The notes under the pieces were generated by a model that did no database searches, was not told the DNA's origin, and saw only the letters and a list, made by a program, of their open reading frames with translations. Positions 1 through 5,194 of a DNA stretch of 64,000 nt are shown one piece after another. Each line of letters opens with the position of its first letter. The first letter of the stretch is position 1. This DNA is from Pseudomonadota bacterium (GTDB lineage: Bacteria; Pseudomonadota; Alphaproteobacteria; GCA-2746255): assembly GCA_040752895.1 (NCBI GenBank), contig JBFMHN010000002.1, positions 1 through 64,000 of the forward strand, given 5' to 3'. The translations under genes were made by a program, and so were the position numbers.

Positions 1-244
1 CCCCCCAAAGCCCGCGCCGTTTGTCTGGCGGGCGTCGGCGCCGGCGCCGACGGCATCGGTACAAACGGCAACGCCGGAAGAGAAACAACCGAACGCCCGG
101 GAGATTCTCGACCGGCTGCGTCGCGGACGACGCGGCACGATATCAACGAGGAGCTCGACCGCCTCACGATGTTCGTGCAAACGGTGGAAAGCCTCGCCCA
201 GGATGCCTTGCGCCAGGAAGTCCACGATATCGATACGGACCTGA
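1..244 (+). CDS. possible 3' end of an upstream phage gene (partial)
   Basis: Reading frame 2 is open from the window edge to a TGA at 242-244. Its first 45 or so codons look coding: a Pro/Ala-rich linker followed by a basic helix reading AREILDRLRRG. After about position 135 the frame degenerates to Ser/Arg-rich sequence, while frame 1 becomes protein-like. Either this gene ends by overlapping the next one by 76 bases, or the two reading frames are one protein broken by a -1 shift near 120-140. The product is not identifiable from this fragment. Confidence 0.3.
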   Translation, partial: PPKPAPFVWRASAPAPTASVQTATPEEKQPNAREILDRLRRGRRGTISTRSSTASRCSCKRWKASPRMPCARKSTISIRT

Positions 245-984
245 CGCTGCCGCCGGCCGCAACGCGGGCGAACAAGCTTTTGGGCTTTGGGCAATTCGGG
301 GAGCCGGCCGTCTATGACCGGGCTGCGACGGAAGCCGACCCCACGCTTGGCGGCGAATCGAACGACGGCCTCAACCTGGGCGGCGGCCAAGGGGTGTTCG
401 CGGAGAAATCCGGCGTCACGTTGCGTTTCAAGTCGCTGGTCGCCGGAAATGGCATCGGTCTCGCCGCGAATGCGAACGAGATCACGCTAACCGGAACCGC
501 GCTTAATTTGCTGACGACGGCCGGCGACCTTGTCACGCGCGACGCCTCGTCGCCGGTGCGACTCGCCATGGGTACGAGCAATCAGGTCCTGAAGGTGAAC
601 GCCGCCGGCACCGGGCTTGGCTGGGAAACACTGAAGACGTTGGCCGGCGCGAAGGTGGATTTCCAGACCTTCGCGCTTGCGACAAACACCGCGGCAAGCC
701 TGACAACACCCGCCGGAAGCGGAATTGCCCTCGCCTTTGGACTCAACGCGCTTGGTGATTCGGCCGGTGCGCTTTTCTCGTGGCGGGTGGATGCGTCCCG
801 TTTCTGCAGCCTGATCGCGAAGATCACCGGTGTTGAAGCAACGACCGGGGTATTAACCGGAACGACGGGCAACCCGGACAAGATCACTTATTCCGCTCAT
901 TCGGACGGCAAGCTTTACATTGAAAACCGGCTCGCCAGCACCCGGAATATCGCTGTCTTGCTGTTCGCGACGAGCCCGGCCTGA
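169..984 (+). CDS. phage tail-fibre-like structural protein
   Basis: The product is 271 aa from ATG 169. The frame stays open upstream to the window edge, where it encodes a plausible helix (INEELDRLTM), so the true N-terminus may lie further left. The middle has the phrase AGDLVTRDASSPVRLAMG followed by NQVLKVNAAGTGLGWETL, a pattern common in phage tail fibre and appendage proteins. The C-terminal half is beta-rich with no catalytic motif. The likely role is a virion appendage or receptor-binding component. The next gene starts inside its stop codon (TGATG at 982-986), which indicates co-translation with the terminase genes. The family assignment rests on this wording and on context. Confidence 0.6.
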   Translation: MFVQTVESLAQDALRQEVHDIDTDLTLPPAATRANKLLGFGQFGEPAVYDRAATEADPTLGGESNDGLNLGGGQGVFAEKSGVTLRFKSLVAGNGIGLAANANEITLTGTALNLLTTAGDLVTRDASSPVRLAMGTSNQVLKVNAAGTGLGWETLKTLAGAKVDFQTFALATNTAASLTTPAGSGIALAFGLNALGDSAGALFSWRVDASRFCSLIAKITGVEATTGVLTGTTGNPDKITYSAHSDGKLYIENRLASTRNIAVLLFATSPA

Positions 985-1280
985 TGGCAAAAGACATGGC
1001 GGGTCTGCGCACGCAGGTTCTCGCCATGCTGCCCGGCCTGATGGGGAAGGCGATGACCAGCTACCGTCGCTTCGCCGCCGCGCAGCAACCAAAGGATCCG
1101 AAAGGGTTTGCAACCCATCATGCCGCGTGCCGGGCGGCGCTTGCGCATATGGAGCTGCTGATCCGGCTCGCGCGCTGGGCGGAGACAAACGAGGTTGGCA
1201 ACGAGGAAAGCAACGAGGACGTGGCAAAGCTGATCGCCGAAGCGCGGGCGGCAATGGCTGAGATGACGGAGGAGGCATGA
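984..1280 (+). CDS. small phage protein, candidate terminase small subunit
   Basis: The product is a 98-aa, largely helical protein with no motif I can name with certainty. It lies directly before the large terminase gene and overlaps it by ATGA (1277-1280), the usual place and coupling for a TerS DNA-recognition subunit. Its start overlaps the stop of the tail-fibre-like gene. The sequence has a basic N-terminal half (MTSYRRFAAAQ) and an acidic C-terminal helix (EDVAKLIAEARAAMAEM). The TerS role is inferred from position only. A helical adaptor protein would fit equally well. Confidence 0.45.
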   Translation: MAKDMAGLRTQVLAMLPGLMGKAMTSYRRFAAAQQPKDPKGFATHHAACRAALAHMELLIRLARWAETNEVGNEESNEDVAKLIAEARAAMAEMTEEA

Positions 1281-2749
1281 CGTGGCCAACTTTTCCGGAA
1301 TTCGTCTGGCTTTGGAATCGCCTGCAAGCTCAGCCCACCCCGAAACTGCACCTGGAGATCACGCACTGGCTGGGCGAACGCTGGCAAGAAGGCGACCGCG
1401 AGCTTTTGTTGATTGCCTTCCGCAACAGCGGGAAATCAACGATTTCCGGTCTATTTTCGGCCTGGCTTTTGGGCAGGAACCCAAACTTGCGAATCCTCGT
1501 CCTCGCCGCCGAACAGGAGCTGGCGAACAAGATGGTCCGCAACGTCATGCAGATCATCGAGCGGCACCCGCTGACGCGACAGCTTAAACCAAAACGCGCC
1601 GACCAGTGGGCTGCCTCTAAATTCACCGTGAAACGCCGGCTGCACCTTCGCGATCCTTCGATGCTGGGACGCGGGATCAACGCGAACGTTACGGGAAGCC
1701 GGGCAGACGTCGTGCTGTGCGACGACGTCGAGGTGCCGAATACCTGCGACACGGCGCCGAAGCGGGCGGATTTGCGACGGAAGCTGGCCGAAATCGAATA
1801 TGTGCTGGTGCCGGACGGCCTACAGCTATACCTCGGCACCCCGCACACCTATTACACGATTTATACGGACGAGGTGCGGAAGGAAACCGGCGAGGAGCGG
1901 CCCTTCCTGGACGGGTTCAAGCGGCTTGAACTTCCCATCCTGGATGGGAAGGGAAAGAGCCGCTGGCCGGAGCGTTTCTCGAAAAAGAAGATCGCCGCAA
2001 TCAAACGGCGAAGCGGGCCAAACAAGTTCGCAAGCCAGATGCTGCTTAGGCCCATGAATATCGCGGAAAGCCGCTTGGACCCCGACCGGCTGCGTCTCTA
2101 CGAGGGCGAGCTCGATTACCGCGAATCGAACAAGGTGGCGAGTCTCCACCTCGAAGGGCGGCGCCTCGTTTCGGCAAGTTGCTGGTGGGACCCCGCCTTC
2201 GGATCTCCGGAGCGCGGCGATTCGAACGTGGTTGCCGCCCTCTATACGGACGAAGAAGGCGGCTATTGGCTGCATCGCTTGCACTACTTCACGTGGGAAC
2301 CGGGCTCGGAAGTGGACGAGGCAACCCAGCTCTGTCGCCGGGTGACGGGATTCCTGAAAGGACTTTACCTGCCGAGCCTGATCCTGGAGACGAATGGGCT
2401 TGGCCGTTTCCTGCCGGGCCTCCTGCGGCGCGAACTGGCGCAAGCTGGTCTTGGCACGAGCGTCCTGGAGACGACTTCCACTCGCACCAAGGACTTGCGG
2501 ATTTTGGACGCGTTCGACGCCGTGCTCGCGGCGGGTGCGTTGCATGCACATCGCAGCATTTGGACGACCCCTTTCGTCACGGAAATGCGGGAATGGCAGC
2601 CCGGCACCCACGGGCCGGACGACGGGCTGGATGCGGTGAGCGGCTGCCTGCTCGTCGAGCCTGTTCGCCTGCCGCTGACGACCCCGCCGGGCCGGCGCGA
2701 CTGGCGCGGGGCGCGAAGCGTCGTTGCGAAGACAGATTTCGAGGTTTGA
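1277..2749 (+). CDS. terL: phage terminase large subunit, T7 gp19-like
   Basis: The product is a 490-aa DNA-packaging motor with an ATPase and a nuclease domain. Near residue 50 is a Walker A-like motif, AFRNSGKST. A Walker B region follows near residue 150 (GSRADVVLCDDVEVPN), then YLGTPHTYYTIY, a coupling segment. These phrases match the arrangement in T7 gp19 (GSRAD..ADDVE..., YLGTP...). The C-terminal RNase H-like nuclease shows the expected acidic residues in WWDPAFG, LETNGLG and DDGLDAVSG. The length is somewhat below T7 gp19. All key motifs are present, so the gene looks intact. It overlaps the preceding small gene by 4 bases and is followed after 15 bases by the lysis-type genes. Confidence 0.9.
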   Translation: MTWPTFPEFVWLWNRLQAQPTPKLHLEITHWLGERWQEGDRELLLIAFRNSGKSTISGLFSAWLLGRNPNLRILVLAAEQELANKMVRNVMQIIERHPLTRQLKPKRADQWAASKFTVKRRLHLRDPSMLGRGINANVTGSRADVVLCDDVEVPNTCDTAPKRADLRRKLAEIEYVLVPDGLQLYLGTPHTYYTIYTDEVRKETGEERPFLDGFKRLELPILDGKGKSRWPERFSKKKIAAIKRRSGPNKFASQMLLRPMNIAESRLDPDRLRLYEGELDYRESNKVASLHLEGRRLVSASCWWDPAFGSPERGDSNVVAALYTDEEGGYWLHRLHYFTWEPGSEVDEATQLCRRVTGFLKGLYLPSLILETNGLGRFLPGLLRRELAQAGLGTSVLETTSTRTKDLRILDAFDAVLAAGALHAHRSIWTTPFVTEMREWQPGTHGPDDGLDAVSGCLLVEPVRLPLTTPPGRRDWRGARSVVAKTDFEV

Positions 2750-2764
2750 ACGAGGAGATTTCGG

Positions 2765-3067
2765 ATGGAGACCCAGTGGAGCGTCAGCCTGATCTGGTGG
2801 ATCACTGCCGTTGAACTTCCGACATTGGCCAGTCTTTTCTGGCTGATCTGGCGTGCCCGGAGCGAAGCGCAGGCCTCGCTCGAACGGCTGTACCATGCCT
2901 TTCAGACGGATGCCGACGAGCACCGGATGAACCTGGCCACCTTCAAACTGGAGGTTGCAAAATTCTACGCCTCGATCGCGCATCTGAAGGATGTGGAAAC
3001 GCGACTTTCCCGCCATCTCCAACGGATCGAGGACAAGCTCGACAACCAGATCCAGAGGTGGCGATGA
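2765..3067 (+). CDS. one-TM coiled-coil phage protein, spanin-like topology
   Basis: The product is 100 aa. A hydrophobic N-terminal segment (about residues 6-28, WSVSLIWWITAVELPTLASL) is followed by a charged helical region predicted to form a coiled coil (about residues 32-98). It lies between the large terminase and the endolysin, where T7-like phages carry Rz-type genes. The topology fits an inner-membrane spanin, but no Rz1-like lipoprotein frame is visible inside or after it. The next gene starts within its stop (ATGA, 3064-3067). The spanin role is an inference; a holin-associated protein is the alternative. Confidence 0.6.
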   Translation: METQWSVSLIWWITAVELPTLASLFWLIWRARSEAQASLERLYHAFQTDADEHRMNLATFKLEVAKFYASIAHLKDVETRLSRHLQRIEDKLDNQIQRWR

Positions 3068-3495
3068 ACGCGCGGGCCGATTTCGCCGAACGCGAGGAAA
3101 GACGGCTTGGCCGGTTGCTCGCCGCCGCAATCCATGCGGAATGCACACACGCCGCCGGGCATGGCAAGGGAAATGTGCGCGACATGGAAGCGATCGCCGC
3201 CGCGTTTTTGAACAGGGCGGCGCTTGAAACCCGGAAAGGGACAAGCGGCGTAAGTTTCGAGACGCTTTGCCAGGAACGGATTGCGCTTGTGGAACGTCCA
3301 CTGGACCGCCAAACGGAAGACCCCCTTTTTGTTGCCTGCCATCGGATCGCGCGGCGCGCGCTCGCCGGAGTGTTGCCGGACCCAACGCAAGGGGCAACGC
3401 ACTTTCATACGCAGGAGACATTTCCAGGATGGGCGCATGGACGCACACCCGCCGCCGCCTTCGGCAATCATCTCTATTACCGGGAGGAAACCTAG
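3064..3495 (+). CDS. SleB-type cell-wall hydrolase (endolysin)
   Basis: The product is about 143 aa from ATG 3064, which overlaps the previous stop by ATGA; a GTG two codons upstream is the alternative. The N-terminal half contains a lineage-typical AAAFLNRAAL stretch. The C-terminal half reads ALAGVLPDPTQGATHFHT, then FPGWAHGRTPAAAFGNHLYY, which is the signature of the Hydrolase_2/SleB family of peptidoglycan-cleaving enzymes. It has no signal peptide, so it would depend on the holin encoded next to it. It is part of the lysis block of the phage module. Confidence 0.8.
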   Translation: MNARADFAEREERRLGRLLAAAIHAECTHAAGHGKGNVRDMEAIAAAFLNRAALETRKGTSGVSFETLCQERIALVERPLDRQTEDPLFVACHRIARRALAGVLPDPTQGATHFHTQETFPGWAHGRTPAAAFGNHLYYREET

Positions 3496-4044
3496 ATGCT
3501 GGCGGCCCTGCTTGCCGAAATCGGACTTCCCTTTCTCGTGCGGACAGTAGAAAGGGCGCTGGGTGGCCTCGAAAACCCGATCGCGCAATCGGCGGCGAAC
3601 GCGCTCAAAGGCGTCGGTTCCGCGATCGAGAAGGGAACGATCACGCCGGAGGAAGTGCGCGAGGCGAACCGCCACGTCGAGCGCCTGGCCGAAATTGACG
3701 CGGAGCAAGAAGCGCGAATTTTGCGTGAGATCAACCAAACGATCCGCTCGGAAGTAAGCTCGGGGGATTCGTATGTTCGCAGGATGCGGCCCACTTTCGG
3801 CTATATCCTGGCGCTTACCTGGCTTGCCCAGATGCTGGCTGTCGCCCATGTGATCGCGTTCGATCCGGCGCGCGCCGGCGAGGTGGTGGCGTCTCTCGGG
3901 CATTTAAGCACTATCTGGACGGTGGGATTGAGCGTGCTCGGAATTTACGTCTACAAGCGCTCCCAGGAAAAAACGGCTGGCCTTCTTCCCGGCCCCGGCC
4001 AGGACGTTCTCGGCAGGCTTGCAAAACGCTTCGGCGGAAAATAG
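3496..4044 (+). CDS. 3-TM holin (GTA_holin_3TM family)
   Basis: The product is 182 aa and starts directly after the endolysin stop. The N-terminal half is amphipathic and charged. It is followed by RRMRPTFGYILALTWLAQM and two or three membrane segments (about residues 100-155), ending with a basic tail. This matches Pfam PF11351, the holin of 3TMs for gene-transfer release, found in prophages and gene transfer agents of alphaproteobacteria. Its role is to permeabilise the inner membrane so that the hydrolase reaches the wall. It is the last gene of the phage block; pyrD begins 46 bases later. Confidence 0.8.
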   Translation: MLAALLAEIGLPFLVRTVERALGGLENPIAQSAANALKGVGSAIEKGTITPEEVREANRHVERLAEIDAEQEARILREINQTIRSEVSSGDSYVRRMRPTFGYILALTWLAQMLAVAHVIAFDPARAGEVVASLGHLSTIWTVGLSVLGIYVYKRSQEKTAGLLPGPGQDVLGRLAKRFGGK

Positions 4045-4090: not shown

Positions 4091-5194
4091 ATGGGGTTTG
4101 AAATTGCCACTTTCACGGCCGGTTACCGGCTGATTGCGCCATTCCTCCGATGGCTGCCGCCGGAAGCCGCCCACGACCTGATTCTGGCGGCGCTTGGCCT
4201 CGGGCTTGCGCCGCGAAGGCGGGCAGTGGACGAGCCGTCGCTGGCAACGCGCGCCTTTGGGCTTTCCTTTCCGAACGCGATCGGCCTGGCGGCCGGTTTC
4301 GACAAGAACGCCGAAGCGGTGGACGCCATGTTCCGTTTCGGCTTCGGTTTCGTCGAGGTCGGCACCGTGACACCCAAGCCCCAGGCCGGCAATCCGAAGC
4401 CTCGGCTTTTTCGCCTGACGAAGGACGAAGCCGTCATAAACCGCTTGGGCTTCAACAGCGACGGCATGGCGAAGGTGGTTGAACGGCTGCGCCGGCGAGG
4501 CGACGCGGCGGGCCACGCCCCCGGCGTCGTCGGCGTGAACGTCGGCAAGAACCGCGAAAGTGAGAACGCCAGCACCGACTACGCCGCTGCTGCCGCTGCC
4601 TTCGCGGGCCTTGCGGATTACCTTGTCCTCAACGTTTCCTCGCCGAACACGCCGGGCCTTCGCGACCTCCAGACGAAGGCGCGCGTGAGGGAAGTCCTCG
4701 AAAAGACCCGCGCCGCCATAACGGGAAAAGGGCTTGGCCAGCCGACACCGTTGCTTTTGAAAGTCGCCCCCGATCTTGAGGAGGCGGAACGCGAAGGAAT
4801 CGCGGAGGTTGCCTTGGAAGGACTCGCGGACGGCCTTGTCATCGGCAACACGACGCTAACGCGCCCTTCCTACTTGCAAAGCCCGCTGCGCCATGAGGCG
4901 GGCGGCTTGAGCGGCAAGCCGCTGTTTGCTCTTTCGACCGAAGTGCTTGCCGATTTCTACCGCCGAACGGAAGGGCGCGTGCCCCTGATCGGGACCGGCG
5001 GAATCGCCAGTGGCGAGGAGGCGTATGCGAAGGTCCGAGCCGGCGCTTCGCTCGTACAGCTTTATACGGCGCTGGTTTTCGAAGGGCCGGCACTGGTGAC
5101 GCGAATCCGGCGCGAACTTGACCGGCTTCTCCGCCGCGACGGCTTCACCCATGTCGAGCAGGCCATAGGCGCCGACCATCGGCAACTGCGCTAG
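4091..5194 (+). CDS. pyrD: dihydroorotate dehydrogenase (quinone), class 2
   Basis: The product is a 367-aa FMN enzyme that oxidises dihydroorotate to orotate at the inner membrane and passes electrons to quinone (pyrimidine synthesis). The N-terminal amphipathic extension of about 40 residues is typical of membrane-bound class 2. The sequence shows GLAAGFDKNAEA, the FMN region VEVGTVTPKPQAGNPKPRLF, INRLGFNSDG, and LNVSSPNTPGLR containing the class 2 catalytic serine. FMN phosphate-binding residues appear in LIGTGGIASGEEAY. A GGGGG tract ahead of ATG 4091 may serve as ribosome binding site. The gene is convergent with groEL across a terminator. Confidence 0.95.
   Translation: MGFEIATFTAGYRLIAPFLRWLPPEAAHDLILAALGLGLAPRRRAVDEPSLATRAFGLSFPNAIGLAAGFDKNAEAVDAMFRFGFGFVEVGTVTPKPQAGNPKPRLFRLTKDEAVINRLGFNSDGMAKVVERLRRRGDAAGHAPGVVGVNVGKNRESENASTDYAAAAAAFAGLADYLVLNVSSPNTPGLRDLQTKARVREVLEKTRAAITGKGLGQPTPLLLKVAPDLEEAEREGIAEVALEGLADGLVIGNTTLTRPSYLQSPLRHEAGGLSGKPLFALSTEVLADFYRRTEGRVPLIGTGGIASGEEAYAKVRAGASLVQLYTALVFEGPALVTRIRRELDRLLRRDGFTHVEQAIGADHRQLR

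Follow-up and report, generated by a model that had tools for sequence, protein, structure and literature searches.

A probably domesticated podoviral gene cluster between an S24 repressor gene and pyrD is a candidate gene transfer agent of Alphaproteobacteria

The window, by which we mean the whole stretch of 64,000 nucleotides analyzed here (G000:C2:1-64000), is the very start of the 517-kb contig C2 of its source genome, an alphaproteobacterial genome of 2.29 Mb (G000). Its first 4,044 nucleotides harbor six open reading frames (ORFs) on the forward strand, which an initial annotation had read as tail fibre, possible terminase small subunit (TerS), terminase large subunit (TerL), one-transmembrane (one-TM) coiled-coil protein, hydrolase, and holin, an order that it likened to the late region of T7. 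All six ORFs were confirmed, and so was the likeness in gene order. The fibre ORF (positions 1 to 984) matches tail spike and tail protein families (phrog_14558/1640; E = 4e-5 to 4e-4) and is truncated at its 5' end because the window begins at a contig end. Its relative in the congener G001 is 378 amino acids (aa) long, with a C-terminal 280 aa that are 80% identical to the window fibre and a conserved N-terminal tail-attachment domain (phrog_1640; E = 9e-35).

TerL (1277 to 2749) belongs to the T7 gp19 family, as had been proposed: it scored 421.9 bits against the NCBIfam profile termin_lrg_T7 (NF033889), for which the cutoff is 150, and it matches phrog_38 (E = 2e-72) and the PDB entries 8dgc/4bij. 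Residues 12 to 198 match the solved T7-type maturase B (E = 5e-24), and the phrases GSRAD...DDVE and YLGTP, from which the family had initially been recognized, lie inside this span. Furthermore, the ATPase and nuclease motif residues are invariant in a 13-row alignment. The ORF preceding TerL (984 to 1280) encodes a conserved protein of 98 aa (phrog_31793; E = 1.5e-24), for which AlphaFold predicted three helices without a helix-turn-helix (HTH) (pLDDT of 87); this model gave no significant PDB match. Since no similarity to T7 gp18 could be detected, the protein is called TerS-like by its position only.

The three remaining ORFs appear to be devoted to lysis. The one-TM coiled-coil protein (2765 to 3067; phrog_29007, of unknown function, E = 1e-25) occupies the position of T7 18.5, and we infer that it is a probable lysis accessory; it follows TerL in 64 of the 80 loci kept from a GTDB scan as the best of at least 549 related stretches. 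It is followed by a cell wall hydrolase, a probable endolysin (3058 to 3495; PF07486 Hydrolase_2, E = 1.4e-8; phrog_938 endolysin), and by a three-TM holin of the GTA type (3496 to 4044; PF11351 GTA_holin_3TM, E = 4e-11; phrog_3427 holin). The cluster is bordered by the host gene pyrD (4091 to 5194, forward strand), which lies outside the particle unit. As initially annotated, there is no integrase or tRNA on this side, and no tRNA was found nearby.

In relatives, the complete unit measures about 12.5 kb and consists of a divergent S24/LexA-like repressor gene followed by the particle and lysis genes and then by pyrD. In G001, lysyl-tRNA synthetase (LysRS) and the divergent S24/HTH repressor are followed by two small conserved proteins, a short phrog_831 protein, and the portal (PF12236; E = 1e-142). 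Next come a small gene, a T7-type scaffold (PF05396; E = 1e-13), the capsid (PF19821; E = 3e-83), an 89-aa protein, tail tube A (phrog_394), and tail tube B (phrog_376, seen in G003). The right part comprises a small internal-virion-like protein (phrog_418; E = 1e-4), the fibre, the TerS-like protein, TerL, the one-TM protein, the hydrolase, and the holin, and it ends at pyrD. This gene order is common to the congeners G001 and G003, to other families, to the GTDB loci, and to 40 further genomes, while the fibre region varies in length. Among the genes that the initial annotation had suggested looking for to the left, a podoviral portal and tail tubes are thus present in relatives, but a single-subunit RNA polymerase and an integrase belonging to the unit were not found. 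Upstream of the portal we also observed a conserved protein with invariant His and Cys residues (L023:12903-13358 and relatives), which gave no family in Pfam or NCBIfam and no fold match and may have an enzymatic role in the particle or in lysis.

In G000 itself, the two ends of the unit are found at the beginnings of different contigs, the S24 end on C3 (C3:1137-1769) and the fibre-to-holin end on C2, and everything from the portal through tail tube B is absent from the assembly. This is most simply explained by an assembly or binning gap. Portal and capsid matches on G000:C7 were considered as the missing middle and rejected, as they belong to a different phage. They are part of a second podoviral module at a contig end (G000:C7:30634-38226; L223), which has its own TerL and a portal and capsid about 30% and 28% identical, respectively, to those of the cluster; it is probably a separate prophage fragment.

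Several copies are damaged or interrupted. Insertions are carried by the clusters of G018, G043, and G054, and in G018 and G054 the cluster is split over two places. In G054, what appears to be a 17-kb prophage, carrying genes for an integrase, a terminase, and a portal, sits inside the portal gene of the cluster (C2:1263.4-1280.2 kb; L226, L227). In G018, a tyrosine-recombinase element is inserted in the capsid gene (C9:265593 onward; L224), with the remaining capsid on contig C14. G003 has no portal, neither in its otherwise well-kept cluster (C8, between 43104 and 42715) nor in the rest of the genome, which is rated 99% complete. Additionally, in one genus with 0.9-Mb genomes (G417, locus L323; G128; G247), the ATPase and nuclease halves of TerL lie about 3.4 kb apart, separated by opposite-strand genes, one of which resembles dnaB.

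The chromosomal site of the cluster is well conserved. At least 18 distinct loci had pyrD downstream in the same orientation, and in 18 loci the divergent S24 gene lay 0.7 to 1.8 kb from the portal, the exception in that set being G034 (10.6 kb). In eight genomes that have S24 without the cluster, S24 is located beside pyrD or a few kilobases from it, usually near LysRS. Taken together with the flanks in carriers, this adjacency indicates a single ancestral site that the cluster either still occupies or has been lost from. Some lineages have moved the cluster, as in Magnetospirillum, where it has been relocated beside genes that look flagellar, and in some loci host genes are embedded in the unit or split it. 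The initial annotation had suggested a search for direct repeats bounding the element; none were detected in G001, a relative with an intact copy, whose two cluster ends have no word of at least 10 bp in common.

TerL relatives were present in 57 of 385 sampled alphaproteobacterial genomes, representing 33 families and including genomes of 0.9 to 1.5 Mb, nearly always in one copy per genome. Magnetospirillum, Skermanella, Roseospirillum, Terasakiella, and Caenispirillum are among the best 80 of the at least 549 GTDB stretches, and 243 related stretches are entered in IMG/VR, as viral. Among the matches listed from 50,697 phage records, the best phage TerL was 29% identical to that of the window. 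We also searched a sample of 59 genomes for PF13547 (GTA_TIM tail protein), a marker of the gene transfer agent (GTA) RcGTA, and it was absent from G000 and from all strong TerL carriers. This lack of overlap proves nothing alone, since only about one genome with both would be expected by chance. Kogay et al. examined Rhodospirillales, Rickettsiales, and several other orders that yielded no RcGTA-like clusters (PMC6821227), and the podoviral cluster is present in orders where they saw none.

The initial annotation had called the locus T7-like podoviral. The podoviral part of this reading held, as TerL is neither siphoviral nor of GTA type and the upstream genes are neither lambda- nor Mu-like. 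Indeed, the cluster shares with T7 and the Autographiviridae the TerL family, the portal, the scaffold, the tail tube classes, and the late gene order from portal to TerL. In contrast, a T7-like phage is not what we found. The single-subunit RNA polymerase (PF00940) was absent from 10 genomes and from 40 IMG/VR records but present in T7, which served as the positive control. None of 160 related loci had a T7 RNA polymerase, primase-helicase, gp15/gp16, or Piluca-type integrase, whereas control phages scored; the only nonstructural T7-type matches were a polymerase and an exonuclease in a single locus (L051), and with this exception no replication or ejectosome module was detected in the unit. 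Among the matches listed, integrases lay away from the cluster except within elements inserted into it. Furthermore, the TerL tree placed the cluster family far from T7, with a very long branch between the two, and nearest to the terminases of Alcaligenes phage Piluca and Yersinia phage YeP4-type phages (27 to 28% identity); monophyly of the cluster family was neither shown nor rejected (p-AU of 0.36). Piluca also has a portal and a tail tube A similar to those of the cluster, but, being a complete temperate phage, it carries integrase, repressor, recombination, and pilot genes, and its gene order is different.

We then compared the divergence of the cluster with that of its hosts. Protein distances correlated with those of pyrD (Mantel r of 0.48 for TerL, 0.54 for tail tube B, 0.67 for the capsid, and 0.68 for tail tube A; P = 0.0001 for each), with P values of 0.0002 to 0.048 once near relatives were removed. 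TerL distances correlated with RpoB distances as well (r = 0.71; P = 0.0006; n = 8), while for the tail tube proteins no significant correlation with RpoB was seen among seven taxa. Mean distances of the structural proteins were 0.57 (capsid) to 1.12 times those of pyrD. The omega values of the cluster genes were mostly 0.03 to 0.2, comparable to those of pyrD, GroEL, and LysRS, and looser for the TerS-like protein, the 89-aa protein, and the hydrolase. The cluster genes are hence under purifying selection, and the descent of the cluster across much of the Alphaproteobacteria appears to have been mainly vertical. A prophage end, one of three options offered initially, was not borne out; positions 1 to 4044 represent half of a cluster that lies between the S24 repressor gene and pyrD and has passed mainly from parent to offspring lineages.

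The S24 protein is 210 aa long and harbors Cro/C1-type HTH and Peptidase_S24 domains. In the 59-genome sample, it was present in 13 of 13 strong TerL carriers and in 9 of the 46 other genomes. Upstream of S24, the motif GAA-N4-TTC was found in 16 of 39 cluster-bearing loci (2.2 expected), and the full GGAA-N4-TTCC was found in 4 of 39 (0.35 expected), namely, in all four genomes of the genus of the window, to which the exact form is confined; the palindromes recur at distances of about 39 and 67 bp from the start of S24. A -35 element (TTGAC) facing the cluster was present in 26 of the 39 upstream regions (3.4 expected) and in none of eight from cluster-less genomes, and in G000 the palindrome GGAATATTTTCC lies directly 3' of TTGACA. 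These features are reminiscent of RogA of Caulobacter (CCNA_00080), a protein of 213 aa with an HTH and an S24-like domain that uses GGAA-N4-TTCC repeats to repress GTA activators (PMC9632790) and whose gene adjoins lysS in Caulobacterales according to a preprint (PMC13420450). Given the matching operator (exact in the genus of the window, looser in the 16 loci), size, domain architecture, and lysS/LysRS neighbor, S24 is probably RogA. There are two differences: most cluster-linked S24 copies keep the catalytic Ser and Lys, residues that are reportedly missing from RogA, and the target in Caulobacter is gafYZ, whereas here it is apparently the structural cluster itself. Because the catalytic residues are mostly kept, control of the predicted switch by DNA damage is plausible. 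In Rhodobacterales, the RcGTA tailspike gene tspA adjoins lysS (PMC13420450), the gene that lies next to S24 here; conceivably, tspA might be a remnant of the podoviral cluster.

Gene content and selection together argue for a working particle that packages DNA and lyses the cell and that no longer spreads as a virus. It is thus very likely that the cluster encodes a domesticated DNA-packaging particle of podoviral origin. Such a domesticated particle system was another of the options named initially, and it is favored by the gene content, the single ancestral site, the purifying selection, and the lack of an RNA polymerase and an integrase. The known class of particles with these properties is the GTA, and the particle genes are kept at one chromosomal spot next to a gene resembling a GTA switch; for these reasons a GTA is, on balance, the function that we favor. 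The locus combines features expected of a GTA, namely, a phage-derived structural cluster, inheritance with the host, and purifying selection. It has also been reported that a TerS without an HTH is a hallmark of GTAs (PMC11841831), and our HTH-less model agrees with this, albeit weakly, as the protein is identified as a TerS solely from its place in the gene order and is the only one that was folded. For the window, it is likely that positions 1 to 4044 form the right half of a domesticated podoviral cluster of mainly vertical descent that lies between S24, apparently RogA, and pyrD and would make a GTA-like particle. Upon stress, the repressor would free the promoter that points toward the cluster; the head would be built from scaffold, capsid, and portal and filled with host DNA by TerL, perhaps together with the TerS-like protein. 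The tail tube proteins and the fibre would form a short tail, the holin, hydrolase, and one-TM protein would lyse the cell, and the particle would carry host DNA to relatives.

One alternative is a lineage of temperate podoviruses, infectious now or until recently, that integrates at the S24-pyrD site, with S24 acting as a CI-type repressor. IMG/VR does enter the S24-pyrD unit as viral, and some temperate podoviruses, Piluca for example, have a TerL, a portal, and a tail tube A related to those of the cluster. Codivergence alone would be compatible with such a phage, because podoviral lineages may descend with their hosts over long times (PMC10386132). However, the unit is a single copy of only about 12.5 kb of structural genes with no integrase, replication, recombination, or RNA polymerase module beside it, host genes are embedded in it or split it, and phage TerLs reach at most 29% identity among the matches listed. 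A temperate phage is made unlikely by the combination of a fixed site, the lack of phage modules, and the observed rates.

We consider it equally improbable that the domesticated particle serves another use, such as killing competitors, altruistic lysis, or protein delivery. The lysis set and the length-variable fibre region that are part of the unit would suit such a role, and the T7-type ejectosome proteins gp15/gp16 were not detected; nevertheless, the portal, the scaffold, and a TerL with ATPase and nuclease motifs, which would be needless in a DNA-free particle, are conserved, and the repressor resembles a known GTA regulator. Finally, a decaying prophage remnant without function, to which the portal-less G003, the insertions in G018 and G054, and the TerL in two pieces in one genus might point, is very unlikely in view of the low omega values (mostly 0.03 to 0.2, like those of pyrD, GroEL, and LysRS), capsid distances of only 0.57 times those of pyrD, a gene order intact across families and in genomes of 1.1 to 1.5 Mb, and a conserved regulatory region.

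The candidate GTA resembles RcGTA and CcGTA (Rhodogtaviriformidae, type I) in consisting of phage-derived structural genes that descend vertically and have no integrase of their own, in the holin family (GTA_holin_3TM), and in the associated RogA-like repressor. It differs in that RcGTA is siphovirus-like, whereas here the portal, the scaffold, TerL, and the tail tubes are of podoviral type. BaGTA (Bartogtaviriformidae, type II) is likewise a domesticated phage cluster that codiverges with its hosts (PMC9662315); its description sets it apart from the present cluster, as its capsid is of the HK97 type (PMC9662315), whereas the capsid here is PF19821. A literature search of open-licence papers found no published podoviral or T7-like GTA. 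We tentatively propose, as an idea that is somewhat more apt to fail than to hold, that the cluster represents a third, podoviral class of alphaproteobacterial GTA, as old as RcGTA or older and directly repressed by RogA at lysS-rogA-pyrD, and that RogA was first the repressor of this element and was later co-opted for RcGTA-type agents in lineages from which the cluster was lost.

If the GTA reading is true, GTAs are more widespread than thought and have arisen again from a different type of virus. The RogA-like switch beside a podoviral cluster would then suggest an origin for the RogA repressor, and culturable genera such as Magnetospirillum and Skermanella would offer a testable system. 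It would also call for caution over the "proviruses" of virus databases, many of which may be host particles.
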